From Sphingomonadales bacterium (lineage in GTDB: Bacteria > Pseudomonadota > Alphaproteobacteria > Sphingomonadales > Sphingomonadaceae), in the NCBI GenBank assembly GCA_013298745.1, contig JAAFIT010000046.1:1-10643 (forward strand): DNA of 10,643 nucleotides. Direction: 5' to 3'. The position numbers were made by a program, and so were the translations under genes. This document shows positions 2,379-10,643 of the stretch, piece by piece. The notes under the pieces were generated by a model. The model was not told the origin of the DNA. It searched no databases and saw only the letters and a list, made by a program, of their open reading frames with translations. Numbering within the stretch: position 1 is the stretch's first letter; each line of letters starts with the position of its first letter.

Positions 2379-2406
2379 AATCTAACCCGTAACGAGTGCG
2401 ATGCAA
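2379..2406 (-). promoter_or_regulatory. Possible promoter of the XRE regulator gene
   Basis: On the minus strand a TTGCAT hexamer (2401-2406) lies 16 bases upstream of TAGATT (2379-2384). The second matches TATAAT at four of six positions; the first matches TTGACA at only three. Transcription would then begin near 2372, almost at the ATG at 2370, giving a leaderless or nearly leaderless message. That would fit the missing Shine-Dalgarno. The -35 element overlaps the left arm of the inverted TGCAACC/GGTTGCA repeat, which would suit autoregulation. This is a weak match by eye only. Confidence 0.25.
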
Positions 2407-2471
2407 CCCGAAGACGCCGGCGGTTGCAGAAAAGTTGCAGTCACGGTTGCAACAGTTGCGCACCCGTTGCG
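2402..2471. repeat. GTTGC repeat cluster, candidate operator in the divergent intergenic region
   Basis: Five copies in direct orientation on the plus strand: GTTGCA at 2423-2428, 2434-2439 and 2446-2451, and GTTGCG at 2455-2460 and 2466-2471. Start-to-start distances are 11, 12, 9 and 11 bases, close to one helical turn. An inverted copy, TGCAACC at 2402-2408, pairs perfectly with GGTTGCA at 2422-2428 at a start-to-start distance of 20 bases, about two turns. The copy at 2446 extends to the self-complementary GTTGCAAC (2446-2453). The cluster lies between the start of the XRE gene (2370) and the PEPxxWA gene (2563). Several helically phased copies suggest cooperative protein binding, with the adjacent XRE protein as the obvious candidate. 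That assignment is inference. Confidence 0.5.
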
Positions 2472-2550
2472 CTCGCCGACGCTGTCCGCCGCAACTGCCG
2501 GAAGCAAAGCGGTCCGCCTAACTGAAAACCGGTTGGCATTTTCGGGCAAA

Positions 2551-2556
2551 AGGGGA
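2551..2556 (+). promoter_or_regulatory. Shine-Dalgarno fixing the start of the first PEPxxWA-CTERM gene
   Basis: AGGGGA lies six bases upstream of ATG 2563. The reading frame is open from an earlier ATG at 2401, but that ATG lacks a site of this kind and would put 54 non-signal residues ahead of the signal peptide. Confidence 0.75.
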
Positions 2557-2562
2557 CGCACA

Positions 2563-3570
2563 ATGACCAAACACTATTTTCTCGCAGGTGTATTCGCAGC
2601 ATCAGCGGCGTTGGCGACGCCGGCCGCTGCCAGCGTGCCGGGCTACAGCATGACCGTCGATGCCAAATGGGGCGGGTCGAACGAGCCCAACAAGTCGGGA
2701 ACCTATGCTTACACGCGTAGCAAGGCCAGCGGTTGGGCGAACGGCTATGACAACCCTATCTTTCTTGGTTCTTCGATGCACGGCGCTTCATCCGCGGCAA
2801 TGGTTAACCATATGGCTTCTATCCAGCCAGGCGTGATCAAGGCCAGCATCGATAGCCAGATTGAGGCCGAGAATCCCTTTCTGGTGTCACAGGAAAGCAC
2901 CTGGGCCGCCGTGGCTCTCGATCTTGCCGATAGGGACATCATCACCTTCGGCGGCATCAATTCCAGCGCGCTGGCGCAGATCACCAATTTCGTCGAACTG
3001 AAGTTTTTGAAGGAGGTGTTCTCCAACGCCGATGATGACAATGGCTCGATGAGCACGAAGAACGGCTTTTCCTATTCCAGCACCATCAAGGTGTACGACA
3101 GCATGGCGGCGCTGCAGTCCGGGCGTGTCCCGCCGAAATCGAATTCCAGCTGGACGCTTTGCAGCAGCACCTTGCTGTGCAACAGCCTGGCCAGTTTCAA
3201 CGGCGGCAAGAAGCTCAACCGCCGGCAGTTTCTGGTCGACGCCGATGACGTCATGGTCATCGACACCCACGTCTCGATGTTCAGCGACCTGTTCGCAACA
3301 CGGACGCGGCTTGGCAATAGTCCGAAAGACTTTTTCGGACTTCGCTATGCCATCCAGGACTATGACTTCGCGAATTCCGGCTACACGCTGATCGACATGC
3401 TGACACCCGGTGCCGAATATTACAGCGCCGCCGGAGCCTATCCCGCCTCGCTTCCGCCGAGTGCGGTTCCCGAGCCGCAAAGCTGGGCGATGCTGATCGT
3501 CGGCTTCGGCGTTGTCGGCGGCGCGATGCGCAGCCGGCGACAAGCGCCGCGCAATGCGGTCGCTGCATGA
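2563..3570 (+). CDS. Secreted PEPxxWA-CTERM sorting-domain protein, first of a tandem paralogous pair
   Basis: A 335-residue exported protein of unknown function. Residues 1-23 are a signal peptide (MTKHYFLAG, then an Ala-rich core, PAAA-S cleavage site). The C-terminus carries the sphingomonad PEPxxWA-CTERM tail: PEP at 303-305, SWAMLI, a GFGVVGGAM hydrophobic stretch and a basic RSRR cluster at 323-326. Such tails are thought to hold proteins at the membrane for processing by an exosortase-type transpeptidase. The mature region (24-300) looks rich in beta-strands, with a Cys pair at 200 and 206 after a Trp. Similarity to the next gene is clear in SGYTLIDMLTPGA (272-284), the DADDVMVID region (226-234), the DRDIITFGGI region (123-132) and the Trp/Cys-pair segment. 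The distance from SGYTLI to PEP is 31 residues in both. The start at 2563 has a strong Shine-Dalgarno and is the only one giving a good signal peptide. No enzymatic motif was recognised; an extracellular or surface-matrix role is inference. Confidence 0.88.
   Translation: MTKHYFLAGVFAASAALATPAAASVPGYSMTVDAKWGGSNEPNKSGTYAYTRSKASGWANGYDNPIFLGSSMHGASSAAMVNHMASIQPGVIKASIDSQIEAENPFLVSQESTWAAVALDLADRDIITFGGINSSALAQITNFVELKFLKEVFSNADDDNGSMSTKNGFSYSSTIKVYDSMAALQSGRVPPKSNSSWTLCSSTLLCNSLASFNGGKKLNRRQFLVDADDVMVIDTHVSMFSDLFATRTRLGNSPKDFFGLRYAIQDYDFANSGYTLIDMLTPGAEYYSAAGAYPASLPPSAVPEPQSWAMLIVGFGVVGGAMRSRRQAPRNAVAA
3480..3499 (+). repeat. 20-bp direct repeat, copy 1 (PEPxxWA sorting-tail coding sequence)
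   Basis: This 20-base stretch beginning AAGCTGGGCG recurs exactly at 4583-4602. Both copies encode the SWAMLI part of the sorting tail. Selection on the peptide explains some of the identity, but even synonymous positions match here. Confidence 0.8.
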
Positions 3571-3602
3571 TCCGCCGAGAACAGCGAGCCGTACAACAAC
3601 AA

Positions 3603-3608
3603 AAGGGA
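3603..3608 (+). promoter_or_regulatory. Shine-Dalgarno fixing the start of the second PEPxxWA-CTERM gene
   Basis: AAGGGA ends six bases before ATG 3615. An in-frame ATG at 3567 overlaps the end of the preceding gene but would add 16 charged residues before the signal peptide. Confidence 0.7.
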
Positions 3609-3614
3609 AAAATC

Positions 3615-4676
3615 ATGCGCACCAAAACGAAATTCGGAATAGCGGCACTTTTGCTGTTATCGGTCGTCCCAGCACACGCCATTACCACATCACGGCATAT
3701 CAGTGTCAACGGAAAGGTCGAAACTGCACAATATCCGGTTTACGACTACTATGACCGAAAGCTGTTTTCTTACAATAAGGTCGATCCTAACCCGACCGGA
3801 AATACTGTTTTTTCTGATTTTCTTTATGAAAACAATACATCGCGCTATCAGCGCAACTGTAGCCCTTATTCGCCGGTTGCGTGCTATCAGCCCGATCCCA
3901 AGGGTTTCGCCAGCACGCTGAGCACAGCCGATATCGGCACAGGGAGCATCAAGGCGAAATCGATCAACTACGTCAACATGCAAGCGCCGCATCTGTCACC
4001 GCAAAAATCGATTGCGGAAAATAATCTGTCCGCATCGTTGACTGATAGGATTACTTTCACCGGCATCGCACCCGGCACACAGGCGCTCGTGAAAATCACT
4101 GACTATGCGGCAGTCAAGACCGCCGTGAACCCAATCATGGAAGATCCCTGGGATAGCGGCTGGGTGACTAGCACCATGTCCTACACCAGCCGATTGGCGC
4201 TCTATGACAATCAGGCCGCCATCACGTCGGAAACGATCGGCCAGAAATTTCAGTCCGAATGGAAAGTCTGCAATGATTCGGCTGTGTTCCTCGCTTGCGG
4301 CGGATCCAACACCGTATTCAACGGCTACCGCAGCAACTCGAAAACCTTGTCGGTTGACAGCGACGACGTTCTCTTCATTTACAGTCAATTGAGTTTGAGC
4401 AACCTGATCGTTGTCAGTTACCTTTCCCCTGGCTACGGGACGAAAACTATCATTGGCCAACGAAACGATTTCGGCAGCTCGGGCTATACGCTGATCGAAA
4501 TGTTGACACCCGGCGCCGGCTACATCAGCGAATCCGGCGGCTCATACCTCACCTCGGCGCCGTCCTTTGTCCCCGAGCCAGCAAGCTGGGCGATGCTGAT
4601 CGCCGGTTTCGGCTTCACCGGCGCAGCAATGCGTCGACGGCGACAGGCGACGCAGCCCAAGCGCGTCACCGCCTGA
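3615..4676 (+). CDS. Secreted PEPxxWA-CTERM sorting-domain protein, second of a tandem paralogous pair
   Basis: A 353-residue exported protein, paralogous to the preceding gene and starting 44 bases after its stop. Residues 1-22 are a signal peptide (MRTKTKFG, a Leu-rich core, PAHA cleavage site). The C-terminal tail has PEP at 320-322, SWAMLIAGFGFTGAAM and a run of four Arg at 340-343. Shared blocks with its neighbour are SGYTLIEMLTPGA (289-301), DSDDVLFIY (248-256), TDRITFTGI (143-151) and a W-x-x-C segment with Cys219 and Cys228, where the neighbour has a shorter Cys spacing. Its N-terminal third (about 23-115) looks different and adds Cys82 and Cys90. Base composition is odd: bases 3721-3840 contain 43 G+C of 120 (36%), far below the surrounding genes. 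The function is unknown. I infer secretion and handling by the same sorting system, with co-expression from the same promoter. Confidence 0.88.
   Translation: MRTKTKFGIAALLLLSVVPAHAITTSRHISVNGKVETAQYPVYDYYDRKLFSYNKVDPNPTGNTVFSDFLYENNTSRYQRNCSPYSPVACYQPDPKGFASTLSTADIGTGSIKAKSINYVNMQAPHLSPQKSIAENNLSASLTDRITFTGIAPGTQALVKITDYAAVKTAVNPIMEDPWDSGWVTSTMSYTSRLALYDNQAAITSETIGQKFQSEWKVCNDSAVFLACGGSNTVFNGYRSNSKTLSVDSDDVLFIYSQLSLSNLIVVSYLSPGYGTKTIIGQRNDFGSSGYTLIEMLTPGAGYISESGGSYLTSAPSFVPEPASWAMLIAGFGFTGAAMRRRRQATQPKRVTA
4583..4602 (+). repeat. 20-bp direct repeat, copy 2 (PEPxxWA sorting-tail coding sequence)
   Basis: An exact copy of 3480-3499, about 1.1 kb downstream and in the same codon phase. Recombination between the copies would delete the intervening part and leave one in-frame fused PEPxxWA gene. 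Confidence 0.8.
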
Positions 4677-4724
4677 CGCACCAATGCTTGCCGGGGCGCG
4701 GGAAAATCGCCATCTAGCGCGGCC

Positions 4725-6293
4725 ATGTCTGCACCCGCACCCCGGCGCACCTTTGCCATCATCTCGCACCCTGATGCCGGCAAAACGACGCTGACCGAAA
4801 AGCTGCTGCTGTTCGGCGGCGCCATCCACATGGCCGGCGAAGTCCGTGCGCGCGGCCAGAACCGCCGCGCACGATCGGACTGGATGAAGATCGAGCAGGC
4901 GCGCGGCATTTCGGTGACGTCGTCGGTTATGACGTTTGAACGCGGCGGCATTGTCTTCAACCTGCTCGACACGCCGGGCCACGAGGATTTTTCCGAAGAC
5001 ACTTATCGCACGCTGACCGCGGTCGATTCCGCCGTCATGGTGATCGACGCGGCGCGCGGTATAGAAGCGCAGACGCGCAAGCTGTTCGAAGTCTGCCGGT
5101 TGCGCGACGTGCCGATCATCACCTTCATCAACAAGGTCGATCGCGAGGGGCGCGATCCGTTCGAGCTGCTCGACGAGATTTCCGACATACTGGCGCTGGA
5201 CGTCGCGCCGTTGAACTGGCCGGCCGGCATGGGCGGCGAGTTCAAGGGCCTGTACGACCTGCGCAGCCACAAGTTCCTGCGGCCCGATGGCACCGGCACC
5301 AATGCCGCCGGCGAGACGGTGCAGATGTCGGGCCTCGATGACCCGCAGATCGATGCGCTGTGCGGCCCGATTGCCGAGCGGCTGCGCGAACAGGCCGAGC
5401 TGGCGCTCGGCGGCTATGCGACGCTCGATGCCGATCTGTACCGCCAGGGGGCGCTGACCCCGGTGCTGTTCGGATCGGCGCTGAAGGATTTCGGGGTCGA
5501 GGCACTGATCGACGCGCTCGCCGAATTCGCACCGCCGCCGCGGCCGCAACCCGCGTTGCCGGAGCCGGTGTCGCCAACAGACGCGCAGGTGTCGGGCTTT
5601 GTTTTCAAGGTGCAGGCCAACATGAACCCGCAGCACCGCGACCGCATCGCCTTTCTGCGCATCGCTTCGGGCAAGTTCCGCCGCGGCATGAAGCTTCGCC
5701 AGGTCGCCACGGGCAAGGCCATCGCCATCAACTCGCCGATCTTCTTTTTCGCGCAAGACCGCGAGATCGCCGACGAGGCCTTTCCCGGCGACATCATCGG
5801 CATCCCCAACCATGGCGTACTGCGGGTGGGCGATTCATTGGTCGAAAAGGACGATGTCACCTTCACCGGCATCCCGAACTTTGCGCCGGAAATCCTGCGC
5901 CGGGTGCGGCTCGGCGATCCGACCAAATCGAAGCAGTTGCGCACCGCGCTGACCGACATGGCCGAAGAGGGCGTGACACAATTGTTCAAGCCACTGCTCG
6001 GTAGCCAATGGGTTGTCGGCGTCGTCGGCCAGTTGCAATTGGAGGTGCTGATTTCGCGGCTGGAAGCCGAATATCGCGTTGCCGCGAGTTTCGAGCCCAG
6101 CCCGTACGAAACCGCCCGCTGGATCAGCGGCGCCCCGGCCGAACTGAAGCGGTTCATCGACGATAATCGCGGCGCCATGGCCGAAGATCGTGACGGCGCC
6201 CCGGTGTTCATGGCGCGTGACCGCTGGGAACTGAACTACGTCACCCAGCGCGAGACGGCGATAAGGTTTTCGGCTACACGCGAACGGGCATGA
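4725..6293 (+). CDS. prfC: Peptide chain release factor 3 (RF3), translational GTPase
   Basis: A 522-residue cytoplasmic GTPase that ejects RF1/RF2 from the ribosome after peptide release; its length is close to the roughly 530 usual for RF3. The G domain is complete: P-loop SHPDAGKT (14-21), switch I RGISVTSS (60-67), DTPGH (82-86) and NKVD (136-139). The RF3-specific SDWMKIEQARGISVTSSVM context distinguishes it from EF-G, and EF-G domains IV and V are missing. A beta-barrel domain II begins near QVSGFVFKVQANMNP (about 287-301), and the RF3 C-terminal domain follows. No strong Shine-Dalgarno precedes ATG 4725. The weak hexamers TTGCCG (4688-4693) and CATCTA (4711-4716), 17 bases apart, are too poor to call as a promoter. 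No terminator is visible in the 48-base gap after the PEPxxWA gene, so read-through transcription is possible. The stop overlaps the start of the PBP gene (ATGA, 6290-6293). Confidence 0.97.
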   Translation: MSAPAPRRTFAIISHPDAGKTTLTEKLLLFGGAIHMAGEVRARGQNRRARSDWMKIEQARGISVTSSVMTFERGGIVFNLLDTPGHEDFSEDTYRTLTAVDSAVMVIDAARGIEAQTRKLFEVCRLRDVPIITFINKVDREGRDPFELLDEISDILALDVAPLNWPAGMGGEFKGLYDLRSHKFLRPDGTGTNAAGETVQMSGLDDPQIDALCGPIAERLREQAELALGGYATLDADLYRQGALTPVLFGSALKDFGVEALIDALAEFAPPPRPQPALPEPVSPTDAQVSGFVFKVQANMNPQHRDRIAFLRIASGKFRRGMKLRQVATGKAIAINSPIFFFAQDREIADEAFPGDIIGIPNHGVLRVGDSLVEKDDVTFTGIPNFAPEILRRVRLGDPTKSKQLRTALTDMAEEGVTQLFKPLLGSQWVVGVVGQLQLEVLISRLEAEYRVAASFEPSPYETARWISGAPAELKRFIDDNRGAMAEDRDGAPVFMARDRWELNYVTQRETAIRFSATRERA

Positions 6294-8287
6294 CCGAGGC
6301 GCCCGCCGCACCCCCCGAAGCCACAGCGCCGAAAACCCGGCCGCTTCGACATTATATTCTCCCCGCGCTCGCCGTCCTCACCGGCTTTGTCATAGCCATC
6401 ATCATTTGGCTGGTGTTCACAGCACCCCTAGGCCGCGCGCTCGAGCCGGCGCAGAAACCAGCGCTGGTGCTCACCGACAGCGGCGGCCGGCCGATCGCGC
6501 GGCGCGGCGACTACAAGGAAGCCCCGGTCGATCTCGACAAGCTGCCCAAATATGTCCCCGCCGCGCTAATCGCCATCGAGGACCGACGCTTTTACAGCCA
6601 TTGGGGCATCGATCCGCGCGGCATCGCCAGGGCGCTGACGCGCAATATCGCCGCCGGCGGCGTCACCGAGGGCGGCTCGACGCTGACCCAACAGCTCGCC
6701 AAGACGAGTTTCCTGTCCGCCGATCGCAGCATCACCCGCAAGCTGCAGGAGGTGATCATCGCCTTCTGGCTCGAAGCGCGGCTATCGAAGGAGGAAATCC
6801 TCGAGCGTTATCTCTCCAGCGTCTATTTCGGCGATGGCGCCTATGGCATCCGCGCTGCCTCTCGCGTCTATTTCGATAGCGATCCCGAGGATCTGACGCT
6901 TGGCGAAGCGGCCTTGCTCGCCGGCCTCGTGCAAGCGCCGTCGCGGCTCGCCCCCAGCCGCCACCTCGAGGATGCGCGCGAGCGCGCCGACCTCGTCCTC
7001 GCCGCCATGGTCGAAACCGGCGCGATCACCGCGGCCGAGGCCAAACGCGCCAAGCCTGCACGCTATACGCCGGGACGCCGGTCACTGCCGACCGGCAGCT
7101 ATTTCGCCGATTGGGCGCTGCCCCAGGCGCGTGCTGCGTTGCCCGAGGCCGGCTATGGCGATGTCATCGTCAAGACCACGCTCGATCGCAATCTGCAGCG
7201 GCTGGCGGAACGCGCCGTGCGCGATGCGGTGGCGGGCTCCAAAGGCCTCAACCTCACCCAGGCGGCGCTGGTCGCCATGCGCCCCGATGGCCGCGTCGTC
7301 GCCATGGTCGGCGGCACCGATTATGCCAAGACGCCGTTCAACCGCGCCACCCAGGCCGAGCGCCAGCCCGGTTCGTCGTTCAAGCTGTTCGTCTATCTCG
7401 CCGCGCTGGATGAAGGCATGCGCCCCGGTGACATGGTCGAGGATGCGCCGATCCAGATCGGCGACTATGCACCGAAGAATGACGATGGCCGCTATCGCGG
7501 CAAGATCAGCCTCGCCACCGCCTTTGCTGCCTCGTCGAACGTCGTCGCGGTGCGGCTGGCGCAGCAGTTCGGCACCGCGGCGGTGACCGCGCAGGCGCGC
7601 AAGCTGGGCATTACCACGCCGATTTCCGAATATCCCGCCATGGCGCTCGGCACCTCGCCAACGACACTGATCGAGATGACCCAGGCCTATGCCGCCATAT
7701 CCGCCGGCAAGCGCCCGATCACCGCCATAGCCTTGCCGCCGCAACCGCCCTCGGGCGTGCTCGCCAGCGTCAAGGCCACCGCAGACGCGTTGACGCCCTG
7801 GCCGTCGCTGGCGCCGATGCGCGAACTGCTCGCCAGCGTCATCCGCAACGGCACCGGCAATGCCGCGCGGCTGCCGATCCCCGCCTATGGCAAGACCGGC
7901 ACGACGCAGAACCACCGCGACGCGCTGTTCATCGGTTATGCCGGCGATCTGGTGGTCGGCGTCTGGGTCGGCAATGACGACAATTCGCCGATGAACGGTG
8001 TTGTCGGCGGCAGCGTGCCGGCGAGGACTTGGCGGCGCTTCATGCAATCGGCACTGGCGGCGGAAAAGGCCGCCAACGCCCCGCGCCGGCGCCAACCGGC
8101 CGCCGAAGCCATTGGCGATCTGGTGGAAAGCGTTGCCGGACCCGACGCCGGTGCCGCCGCGGATGCTGTGGCGGATGTCGTTGTCGATGCCGAAGCCGGT
8201 CCCATCGCCGCACCCGATGTCACTGATGCGCCGGCCCCGGTAGAGACGCAGCCCCCACCACCGCCGGAGCCTGCCCCGCCGCAATGA
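6290..8287 (+). CDS. Bifunctional class A penicillin-binding protein (transglycosylase/transpeptidase), PBP1A-like and compact
   Basis: A 665-residue inner-membrane peptidoglycan synthase. It has a cytoplasmic N-terminus (1-20), one membrane segment (about 22-44), then a GT51 transglycosylase domain with EDRRFYSHWG (Glu97 the likely catalytic acid), GGSTLTQQLAK (128-138), and RKLQEVIIAFWLE followed by YLSSVYFGDGAYG. The transpeptidase domain follows from about 320, with SSFK (Ser362, Lys365), SSN (415-417) and KTGT (535-538). The link between the domains (about 255-320) is short, leaving no room for the OB-fold insert found in many proteobacterial PBP1A proteins; total length is also well below the usual 750-850. 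After about 595 comes a low-complexity Ala/Asp/Pro tail ending in PPPPPEPAPPQ, probably a disordered periplasmic extension. The start overlaps the prfC stop as ATGA with no good Shine-Dalgarno, indicating translational coupling. Its own stop overlaps the next start in the same way. It could be named mrcA/ponA-like, but the subgroup is uncertain. Confidence 0.95.
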   Translation: MTEAPAAPPEATAPKTRPLRHYILPALAVLTGFVIAIIIWLVFTAPLGRALEPAQKPALVLTDSGGRPIARRGDYKEAPVDLDKLPKYVPAALIAIEDRRFYSHWGIDPRGIARALTRNIAAGGVTEGGSTLTQQLAKTSFLSADRSITRKLQEVIIAFWLEARLSKEEILERYLSSVYFGDGAYGIRAASRVYFDSDPEDLTLGEAALLAGLVQAPSRLAPSRHLEDARERADLVLAAMVETGAITAAEAKRAKPARYTPGRRSLPTGSYFADWALPQARAALPEAGYGDVIVKTTLDRNLQRLAERAVRDAVAGSKGLNLTQAALVAMRPDGRVVAMVGGTDYAKTPFNRATQAERQPGSSFKLFVYLAALDEGMRPGDMVEDAPIQIGDYAPKNDDGRYRGKISLATAFAASSNVVAVRLAQQFGTAAVTAQARKLGITTPISEYPAMALGTSPTTLIEMTQAYAAISAGKRPITAIALPPQPPSGVLASVKATADALTPWPSLAPMRELLASVIRNGTGNAARLPIPAYGKTGTTQNHRDALFIGYAGDLVVGVWVGNDDNSPMNGVVGGSVPARTWRRFMQSALAAEKAANAPRRRQPAAEAIGDLVESVAGPDAGAAADAVADVVVDAEAGPIAAPDVTDAPAPVETQPPPPPEPAPPQ

Positions 8288-9474
8288 TTGCCCTTGATGG
8301 TTTCTCGCCCAGCCGTGCCGCCGGATTGGCACGGCTGGCCGATTTCGCGCCGCGCGCCGGCCGTGCCTATGCCGAAGGCCGCAACAGTGATGCTGGGCCG
8401 AATGCGCCGGGCGCCGTCTCGCGGCTGTCGCCCTATGTGCGACACCGCCTGATCACCGAGCGCGAGGTGGCTGGCGCCGTGCTCGGCGCGCACAGCTTCG
8501 CGACGTGCGAAAAATTCGTCGCCGAGGTGTTGTGGCGCACCTATTGGAAAGGCTGGCTAGAACTGCGCCCCGGCATCTGGCGACGCTATTGCGACGAACG
8601 CGACGCCGCGCGTGAGCGCGTCAAACCCGGCGTGCTCGCCAGTGCCGAAACCGGTGCCACCGGCATCGAGGGCTTTGACCATTGGGCGCGCGAGCTGGTG
8701 GCGACGGGATATCTGCACAATCACGCCCGCATGTGGTTCGCCTCGATCTGGATTTTCACGCTGCGGCTGCCCTGGACGCTCGGCGCCGATTTTTTCATGC
8801 GCAACCTGATCGACGCCGATGCCGCCAGCAACACGCTGTCATGGCGCTGGGTCGCGGGGCTGCAAACACCGGGCAAGACCTATCTCGCCACGGCCGACAA
8901 CATCGCGCGCTATACCGATGGCCGCTTTTCGCCGCGCGGACTGGCGAACACGGCGATTGCATTGACCGAGGACCCGGTGCCGTCGCCACGGCCTTTGCCG
9001 GACTTGGTCACAGCCGATCCGGCGTTGCCGACGCTGCTGCTGGTGACGCCTGATGATTTTCACCCTGAATCGCTTTTCGCCAGCACGCGCGGCGTTGCCG
9101 GCGCGGTGGTGGTCGGCAGCGGCGCGGGTGGCCCGCTATCCCGCGCCTTTGTTGCAGACGCGATGGCGGACACCGCCGCGCGCGTAGCGGCGCACTTCGG
9201 TTGCCCGACACAGCGGTTGGCCGCACTGGACGCCGAAGCGCTGATCGCCGCCGCGGCAAATACCGGCGCGCGCCAGATCGTGATGCCTTATGCGTCCATC
9301 GGTCCCGATGCCGATGCGCTGGCGGCGCTGCTGCCAAAGCTCGACGCCGCCGGGGTGCGCGTGGTGGCAGTGCGGCGCGGCTGGGATTCCGCCTTCTGGC
9401 CGCACGCCACCAAGGGCTTTTTCGCGTTCAAGACCCAGATCCCCCGGCTGCTCGCCGCCGAAGGCCTAGGCTAG
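8284..9474 (+). CDS. Photolyase/cryptochrome-family flavoprotein with FAD domain first and a photolyase-like alpha/beta domain last
   Basis: A 396-residue protein. Residues about 1-225 match the helical FAD-binding domain of DNA photolyases: SRLSPYVRHRLI (46-57), EVLWRTYW (81-88), TGATG (123-127), ATGYLHNHARMWFAS (140-154), and LIDADAASNTLSWRWVAG (175-192). By-eye alignment to E. coli photolyase equates Glu81 with the catalytic Glu274, Trp84 with Trp277, Asn183 with Asn378, Trp164 with Trp359 and Trp187 with Trp382. No Trp sits where Trp306 would be (residues 112-130). Normal photolyases carry an alpha/beta antenna domain before the FAD domain. Here the FAD domain begins almost at the start, and an alpha/beta region (about 248-390) follows a Pro-rich linker. 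Segments TLLLVTPDD, VAGAVVVGSG, a long Ala-rich helix, ARQIVMPYASIGPDADA, GVRVVAVRRGW and ATKGFFAFKTQIPRLL resemble the strand order and final TKSG-FTPFWRAW region of the photolyase N-terminal domain. Function is unproven: repair of UV lesions or light sensing are both possible. The start overlaps the PBP stop (ATGA). Confidence 0.85.
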   Translation: MIALDGFSPSRAAGLARLADFAPRAGRAYAEGRNSDAGPNAPGAVSRLSPYVRHRLITEREVAGAVLGAHSFATCEKFVAEVLWRTYWKGWLELRPGIWRRYCDERDAARERVKPGVLASAETGATGIEGFDHWARELVATGYLHNHARMWFASIWIFTLRLPWTLGADFFMRNLIDADAASNTLSWRWVAGLQTPGKTYLATADNIARYTDGRFSPRGLANTAIALTEDPVPSPRPLPDLVTADPALPTLLLVTPDDFHPESLFASTRGVAGAVVVGSGAGGPLSRAFVADAMADTAARVAAHFGCPTQRLAALDAEALIAAAANTGARQIVMPYASIGPDADALAALLPKLDAAGVRVVAVRRGWDSAFWPHATKGFFAFKTQIPRLLAAEGLG

Positions 9475-10152: not shown

Positions 10153-10643
10153 TTAGTCGGGGCGTACGGCAATGGCGTCAAGCGCCGGTACTCCACAAGC
10201 GGCGAGCCAAGCATCGATCGCGTCATACTCCGCCGGTGGCCGTGTCGAATCCTCGGCATCGCCGGGCGGCACGAAGATCACCATCCCCTGCCGGGCGCGG
10301 GTGAGCAGCACACGATAGGCGTTGCGGACGTAATCGGCGCGGCCGAGCATATCGGCGTCGCCGTGAATCGCCTGCCATTTGGTGCCGCGGAAATTGCGCG
10401 CCTGCCAACCATCAAGCCGGCGCAGGTTGAGATCCCAGGCGACCCCGGTCCAATCGAGCTCGAGACCCTGCACATCGAATTCGGTCGCCGCATCCTCGAG
10501 GGCATTCGATGACCGTACATCGTCGCCGGGGTTGAGGAACCAGTCGCAGACTTCGACCTTGGCCTTGACGTACAAGCCTTCGGGCTTGAGCCGCAGTGCG
10601 TTCGACGAGGCCAACAGCCCGGCCCGCTCGCCAGCGCGGCGCT
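10153..10643 (-). CDS. DUF2075/SF1-helicase-like ATPase, C-terminal part (5' end beyond window)
   Basis: The open frame enters from the right edge and ends at TAA 10153-10155, giving 163 complete codons with no internal start needed. The visible part contains a RAGLLASSNALRLKPEG segment, an ALEDAATEFDVQGLELDW segment with helicase motif V character, and NAYRVLLTRARQGMVIFVP, the motif VI-like NxxRVLLTRAR of UvrD/DUF2075 proteins whose Arg would contact ATP. The C-terminus has an acidic PPGDAEDSTRPPAEYD stretch. Full-length relatives are P-loop ATPases of around 600 residues or more annotated as DNA/RNA helicase domain proteins, with poorly defined roles in nucleic-acid metabolism or defence. 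The P-loop itself is off-window, so activity cannot be judged. A TTG at 10612-10614 could look like a start, but coding similarity continues upstream of it. The HAD gene follows 25 bases downstream. Confidence 0.85.
   Translation of the reverse strand, partial: RRAGERAGLLASSNALRLKPEGLYVKAKVEVCDWFLNPGDDVRSSNALEDAATEFDVQGLELDWTGVAWDLNLRRLDGWQARNFRGTKWQAIHGDADMLGRADYVRNAYRVLLTRARQGMVIFVPPGDAEDSTRPPAEYDAIDAWLAACGVPALDAIAVRPD

Follow-up and report, generated by a model that had tools for sequence, protein, structure and literature searches.

Photolyases in which the flavin adenine dinucleotide (FAD) domain comes first and the second domain last form the NewPHL or short photolyase-like (SPL) class, reportedly described by Emmerich et al. 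2020 and Xu et al. 2021. Published accounts name as NewPHLs D. shibae A8LJA9, M. mesophilicum M7YZC8, E. litoralis Q2N8F4 and R. centenum B6IPR5, from the genera Dinoroseobacter, Methylobacterium, Erythrobacter and Rhodospirillum, and report that characterised members of the class repair cyclobutane pyrimidine dimers (CPDs). In other papers, an SPL is named in Synechococcus elongatus (PMC9178010), and Phr7 of Prochlorococcus is described, with citation of Emmerich et al. 2020, as an N-terminal FAD domain followed by a C-terminal Z-domain, without iron-sulphur (FeS) cysteines (PMC9426592). The same source describes a reverse domain order for the split pair Phr4/Phr5 and the fused Phr6 of marine Synechococcus and Cyanobium, where the FAD part precedes the alpha/beta part in two genes or in one.

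The window, as we call the whole 10,643-nucleotide stretch of Sphingomonadales contig JAAFIT010000046.1 analysed here, carries a gene at 8284..9474 whose 396-amino-acid product we judge, with a probability of roughly 0.87, to be a CPD photolyase of the NewPHL (SPL) type. It shares with that class an FAD domain placed first and a second domain placed last, the tryptophan (Trp) dyad of the D. shibae member and an alphaproteobacterial host, and we found nothing that sets it apart; it resembles Phr7, as described, in architecture, although Phr7 is cyanobacterial. As a single gene it is an ordinary alphaproteobacterial NewPHL, and the reversed order pointed out in a preliminary description of this DNA belongs to a class of inverted topology that is already in print. 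What is added here is a chain of split and fused genes linking the C-terminal half with the alpha/beta domain of photolyases, together with the finding that the FAD-only forms checked have an alpha/beta partner gene. A literature search of titles and abstract openings returned no further paper on the reversed order; the kinship of the C-terminal domain with the alpha/beta domain may nonetheless have been published.

Domain order, flavin pocket and electron chain

The layout of the gene, from its open reading frame (ORF), translation and alignments, is as follows.

8284..9474, + strand: putative NewPHL-type photolyase gene, 396 amino acids, FAD domain first, alpha/beta domain last
8284..8976, + strand: catalytic FAD-binding domain, residues 1-231
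8614..8619, + strand: E111-R112, by alignment columns the site of the third, surface Trp of canonical photolyases
8773..8775, + strand: W164, which comes second in the electron-transfer chain of Trp residues, conserved in all 148 relatives
8830..8832, + strand: N183, asparagine beside the flavin, kept in 147 of 148 relatives
8842..8844, + strand: W187, FAD-proximal Trp, invariant in 148 of 148 relatives
8977..9027, + strand: linker, residues 232-248 (approximate boundaries), an irregular stretch that follows the final helix of the FAD domain and precedes the opening strand of the C-terminal domain
9028..9471, + strand: C-terminal alpha/beta domain, residues ~249-396, putative counterpart of the photolyase N-terminal alpha/beta domain

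Pfam finds only FAD_binding_7 in the 396-residue protein (residues 78-200, E 3.4e-19). A sequence search of the PDB at E ≤ 1 returned 43 distinct sequences, none spanning the whole length, and the photolyase and cryptochrome matches among them are confined to parts of residues 5-219. The N terminus is a photolyase FAD domain with no alpha/beta domain before it, as in NewPHL/SPL and unlike the class I CPD photolyase of E. coli (1dnp), which is alike in FAD-domain fold and most pocket residues but carries its alpha/beta domain first and a full Trp triad. Residues ~249-396 form a compact alpha/beta domain, the C-terminal second domain expected for NewPHL/SPL and presumably the counterpart of the published Z-domain. 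The FAD motifs lie where the preliminary description placed them, and ORF, Pfam and fold evidence agree with the reversed order that it proposed.

A scan of one genome per species confirmed at least 590 relatives. The 80 retained for locus comparison come, going by record title, chiefly from Alphaproteobacteria, with Microbacteriaceae, Thioalkalivibrio, Nevskia and Spartobacteria also represented. Of 240 genomes of the window's class, 12 (its own included) carry a match of nearly full length, and a further five carry one scoring 316 bits or more.

Residue conservation was counted in 148 non-redundant NewPHL relatives, against 30 canonical sequences that are antenna-first photolyases found through PF00875 and not assigned to class one by one. 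Pocket residues E81, W84 and R85 are present in all 148 relatives and N146 and M150 in 147, each with the same letter as in at least 29 of the 30 canonical sequences; their roles are presumably those of the residues of E. coli photolyase with which they align. The exception is H147, which replaces the arginine that follows HN in 30/30 canonical sequences and is histidine in 147/148 relatives. By the same alignment we take W187 and W164 to be the equivalents of E. coli W382 and W359, and E111-R112 to mark the position of W306. No relative (0/148) has a Trp at 111 or 112, whereas the column beside E111 is Trp in 28 of the 30 canonical sequences. On this alignment the triad is reduced to the dyad W187 and W164, as the preliminary description had suspected in noting one triad residue missing; the D. 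shibae NewPHL is likewise reported to have 'a mere Trp dyad' (PMC8948257). N183 is probably the flavin-adjacent asparagine that, according to PMC12083526, is conserved across most photolyase subfamilies, NewPHL included.

By the likely mechanism of the protein, FAD would be photoreduced through W187 and W164, and the reduced flavin, on absorbing blue or near-UV light, would donate an electron to a CPD flipped into the pocket and so split the dimer. CPD specificity and a preference for single-stranded DNA are suggested by analogy with characterised class members. The alpha/beta domain, placed as a whole behind the FAD domain, may close off the FAD site; such sealing by the second domain was reportedly part of the first description of the class.

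A cryptochrome-like light sensor without repair activity could account for the shortened Trp chain and for the histidine at 147; the other examined pocket residues are kept, however, and the characterised class members are reported to repair CPDs, so that we regard a sensor as quite unlikely. The cryptochrome DASH model TIGR02765 gives 60.1 bits against a curated cut-off of 317.05, and no DASH match above cut-off occurs in any of the 240 alphaproteobacterial genomes, which therefore do not bear on the idea that NewPHL substitutes for DASH. A gene for a canonical antenna-first photolyase lies elsewhere in the genome that contains the window (79% complete). A second CPD enzyme beside it could look redundant, and the window gene might instead encode a (6-4) photolyase that complements it. 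We consider this very improbable: at the pocket positions the protein has the residues of a CPD photolyase, and in 8 of the 80 relatives' loci an FeS-BCP-like gene, of the known prokaryotic type of (6-4) photolyase, stands beside or near the NewPHL gene, so that a NewPHL with (6-4) activity would be superfluous in them. Nor does the protein have the four FeS cysteines of that type, since it contains only three cysteines, at 75, 103 and 307. A point against the NewPHL assignment itself is that it is drawn from architecture, residues and taxonomic range rather than from sequence grouping with the named members.

Probable kinship of the C-terminal domain with photolyase alpha/beta domains

The C-terminal domain was compared directly, as a profile of 129 of the 148 non-redundant sequences (19 without the strict motif were dropped; one kept row is a 35-residue fragment), with photolyase N-terminal domains and with 24 control families, of which 23 are true controls and the remaining one proved to be a PF04244 photolyase; hhalign E-values are for single comparisons. 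Against the 30 canonical N-domains it gave a probability of 30% (E 5.5e-4, score 30.7), where the best true control reached 17.8. In the fold search, 15 of 16 photolyase and cryptochrome rows align over 139-155 of 161 residues (two of them at a root-mean-square deviation of 6.8), and the sixteenth, 3zxs, over 112. Rows of other families are shorter: universal stress proteins (Usp) 108-119 residues, the two-domain UspE 128-134 and argininosuccinate synthases 110-115. The non-photolyase 6vwa covers 144 residues, at a deviation of 8.1.

Several results weigh against the relation. The window's C-terminal domain has no PF00875 match, let alone one above the Pfam gathering cut-off, and in an alignment of 63 such domains (the window and 62 of 69 fragments, with 14 loci lacking the motif left out) only two reach PF00875 at E ≤ 0.1, the best at 0.0024. 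The unrelated phosphatase model BLH_phosphatase matches six of the same 63, the best at 8e-5; we take this to be a chance match and reject that identity. The canonical N-domain profile scores about as well with Usp (30.0 over 75 columns) as with the NewPHL C-domain (28.9 over 98), and two sets of photolyase N-domains, those of PF04244 (17.0 over 21 columns) and those of the antenna-first photolyases encoded beside NewPHL genes (17.7), score with the C-domain at the level of unrelated families. Foldseek returned no match to the domain at E ≤ 0.001 and ranked phosphopantetheine adenylyltransferase first.

When PDB sequences were searched with the profile of the C-domains (E ≤ 10, 15 sequences), no photolyase came up; the best matches were BdcA and a c-di-GMP-binding dispersal protein, over 62 columns at E 4e-4. 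The fold search by itself could not separate a photolyase alpha/beta domain from other domains of the same fold, and the direct sequence link is weak. Of the two halves searched separately, as the preliminary description had proposed, the FAD half matches Pfam, and the C-terminal half appears related to photolyases only through intermediates.

Such intermediates are found among split and fused genes. Deinococcus sp. QL22 has an FAD-only gene (L008:3890-4663) and, downstream of it and overlapping its end, a gene (4660-5181) for 173 amino acids, whose product matches PF00875 at E 2.3e-4, under the Pfam cut-off. An FAD-only gene followed by a separate alpha/beta gene of 131-173 amino acids is seen at L008:3890-5181, L135:526-2630, L136:1339-2684, L138:1025-2151 (- strand) and L140:975-2196 (- strand). 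In the alignment of the split alpha/beta proteins, 9 of 11 members reach PF00875 at E ≤ 0.1, the best at 5e-7. This alignment matches 15 of 385 genomes of the window's class at E ≤ 0.001, ten of them strongly (E ≤ 2.4e-29), with nine in open frames of 138-179 amino acids and one in a 502-residue frame; the remaining five lie in frames of 466-649 amino acids, and three of these coincide with separately matched photolyases. All ten strong cases have an FAD-domain gene directly upstream on the same strand: seven pairs overlap, one is 14 bases apart, and two have over-long mechanical ORFs that mask any overlap.

Intact FAD-only genes number six among the 30 loci examined (L135-L140), each with a split alpha/beta gene downstream and each in a genome within the ten. 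Five other short FAD frames (G036, G050, G060, G133 and G137) have no split alpha/beta gene within the stretch taken. They were rejected as FAD-only genes and proved to be pieces of canonical-like photolyases: they score 74-103 bits, as canonical photolyases do, three or more reach the end of their contig, one is in addition split between two frames, and one has a partial canonical N-domain. A CxxC..C motif resembling an FeS site is present in some FAD halves of the split pairs and absent from others.

Fused forms occur on three other Deinococcus plasmids as single proteins of 456-472 amino acids, FAD part first. In two of these proteins residues 300-395 match PF00875 (E 7e-4 and 1e-3, under the cut-off), and each of the three is matched by the profile of the split domains at E ≤ 6e-34; that profile was built from nine of the ten strong alphaproteobacterial loci (one with a stop was excluded) and the 11 alignment rows, several loci being the same genes as rows. 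By description, the split and fused forms of Deinococcus and Alphaproteobacteria share the arrangement of Phr4/Phr5 and Phr6, although FeS cysteines are reported for Phr4 and Phr6 (PMC9426592) and the window protein has only three cysteines. In two fused forms from Persicobacter, Pfam finds only the FAD domain, and a two-sequence profile of their C-domains matched no other profile.

The split-plus-fused profile matches the NewPHL C-domain at 95.5% (E 1.5e-8, 136 columns), or 90.9% (E 1.1e-6) with query and template swapped, and the canonical N-domains at 97.5% (E 6.2e-12, 139 columns); its best true control scores 17.2 and reversed profiles 9.9-14.8. The TKG-FFAFKTQIP block near the end of the window protein is aligned with the helix that closes the split domains, and the Deinococcus profile pairs this helix in turn with the block ending canonical N-domains. 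The resemblance of the two ends remarked on in the preliminary description is recovered in this way, as is the kinship of the C-terminal domain with the photolyase alpha/beta domain, to which the fold rows also point. Its suggestion of a circular permutation or domain swap stands in part: the domain order is swapped as a whole, and a permutation inside the alpha/beta domain is rejected because the profile alignments run colinear from first strand to closing helix. The observation is confirmed and its interpretation partly supported.

Alternatively, the C-terminal domain might have the same broad fold but belong to a different family, such as the universal stress proteins, and have been recruited to its place after the FAD domain. 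Usp does match the split-plus-fused profile at 65.6% (E 5.8e-5), but over 37 columns. Profiles of Usp-type, CTP-transferase, argininosuccinate synthase and response-regulator domains score 14.6-20.3 with the C-domain over 17-62 columns, against 36.4 over 135 columns for the split alpha/beta profile and 45.1-55.8 over 134-136 for the split-plus-fused profile; with the shorter Usp and argininosuccinate synthase rows in the fold search, this makes recruitment unlikely. The relation to the photolyase alpha/beta domain is made firmer by the split and fused forms, as a remote one seen through these intermediates only.

We tentatively suggest, as something a little short of an even chance, that NewPHL is the fused form of a two-gene photolyase, and that lone-FAD 'short' photolyases are one half of it, with the alpha/beta half encoded by the next gene downstream. 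The comparison with split and fused relatives offers an intermediate, at the level of genes, for how the domain order came to be reversed. It also has a bearing on the proposed origin of the photolyase/cryptochrome family from short photolyases. If the pattern is general, SPL/NewPHL proteins would not be simple one-domain ancestors of the family, and the antenna-first and FAD-first lineages would come from a two-part enzyme joined in opposite orders.

Phylogeny and gene neighbourhood

In a tree of 62 FAD domains, a branch (100/100) separates the split and NewPHL forms from two groups of antenna-first photolyases, and therefore a single change of domain order would suffice in this sample; the tree is midpoint-rooted, its bootstrap had not settled, the program warned of long branches, and class II, DASH and cyanobacterial forms are not included. 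A Spartobacteria NewPHL gene in two frames (L087:3001-4218), either a broken copy or a sequencing error, is labelled as split in the tree.

In 13 of the 80 loci a second photolyase gene, for ~500 amino acids, shares the strand of the NewPHL gene and either overlaps it or is no more than ~110 bases away; six show a 4-base overlap. The second gene is downstream in L010, L014, L015, L018, L019, L024, L025, L028, L030 and L034, and upstream in L051, L060 and L083. These neighbours are antenna-first, with PF00875 and PF03441 in the two scanned, and the window has none. The Persicobacter plasmids L287 and L288 show a similar pairing with a second photolyase gene. The eight FeS-BCP-like genes (PF04244 in the one scanned) are adjacent to the NewPHL gene in L017, L022 and L060 and one gene further away in L014, L018, L028, L030 and L034; in five of these eight loci NewPHL, the 500-residue photolyase and the FeS-BCP-like gene stand in a row.

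Upstream in the window, a PBP1A-family gene (6290-8287) ends in a TGA that overlaps the photolyase ATG by four bases (8284-8287). The linkage seems lineage-specific, because none of the 80 relatives' loci, with up to 3 kb of flank per side, matches this penicillin-binding protein at E ≤ 1e-10. Elsewhere in the window, two adjoining ORFs with overlapping ends (2401-3570 and 3567-4676) both carry PEPxxWA-CTERM sorting signals, and near the window end a C-terminal protein piece (10153-10614, - strand) matches the end of PF09848, the Schlafen group 3 helicase domain.
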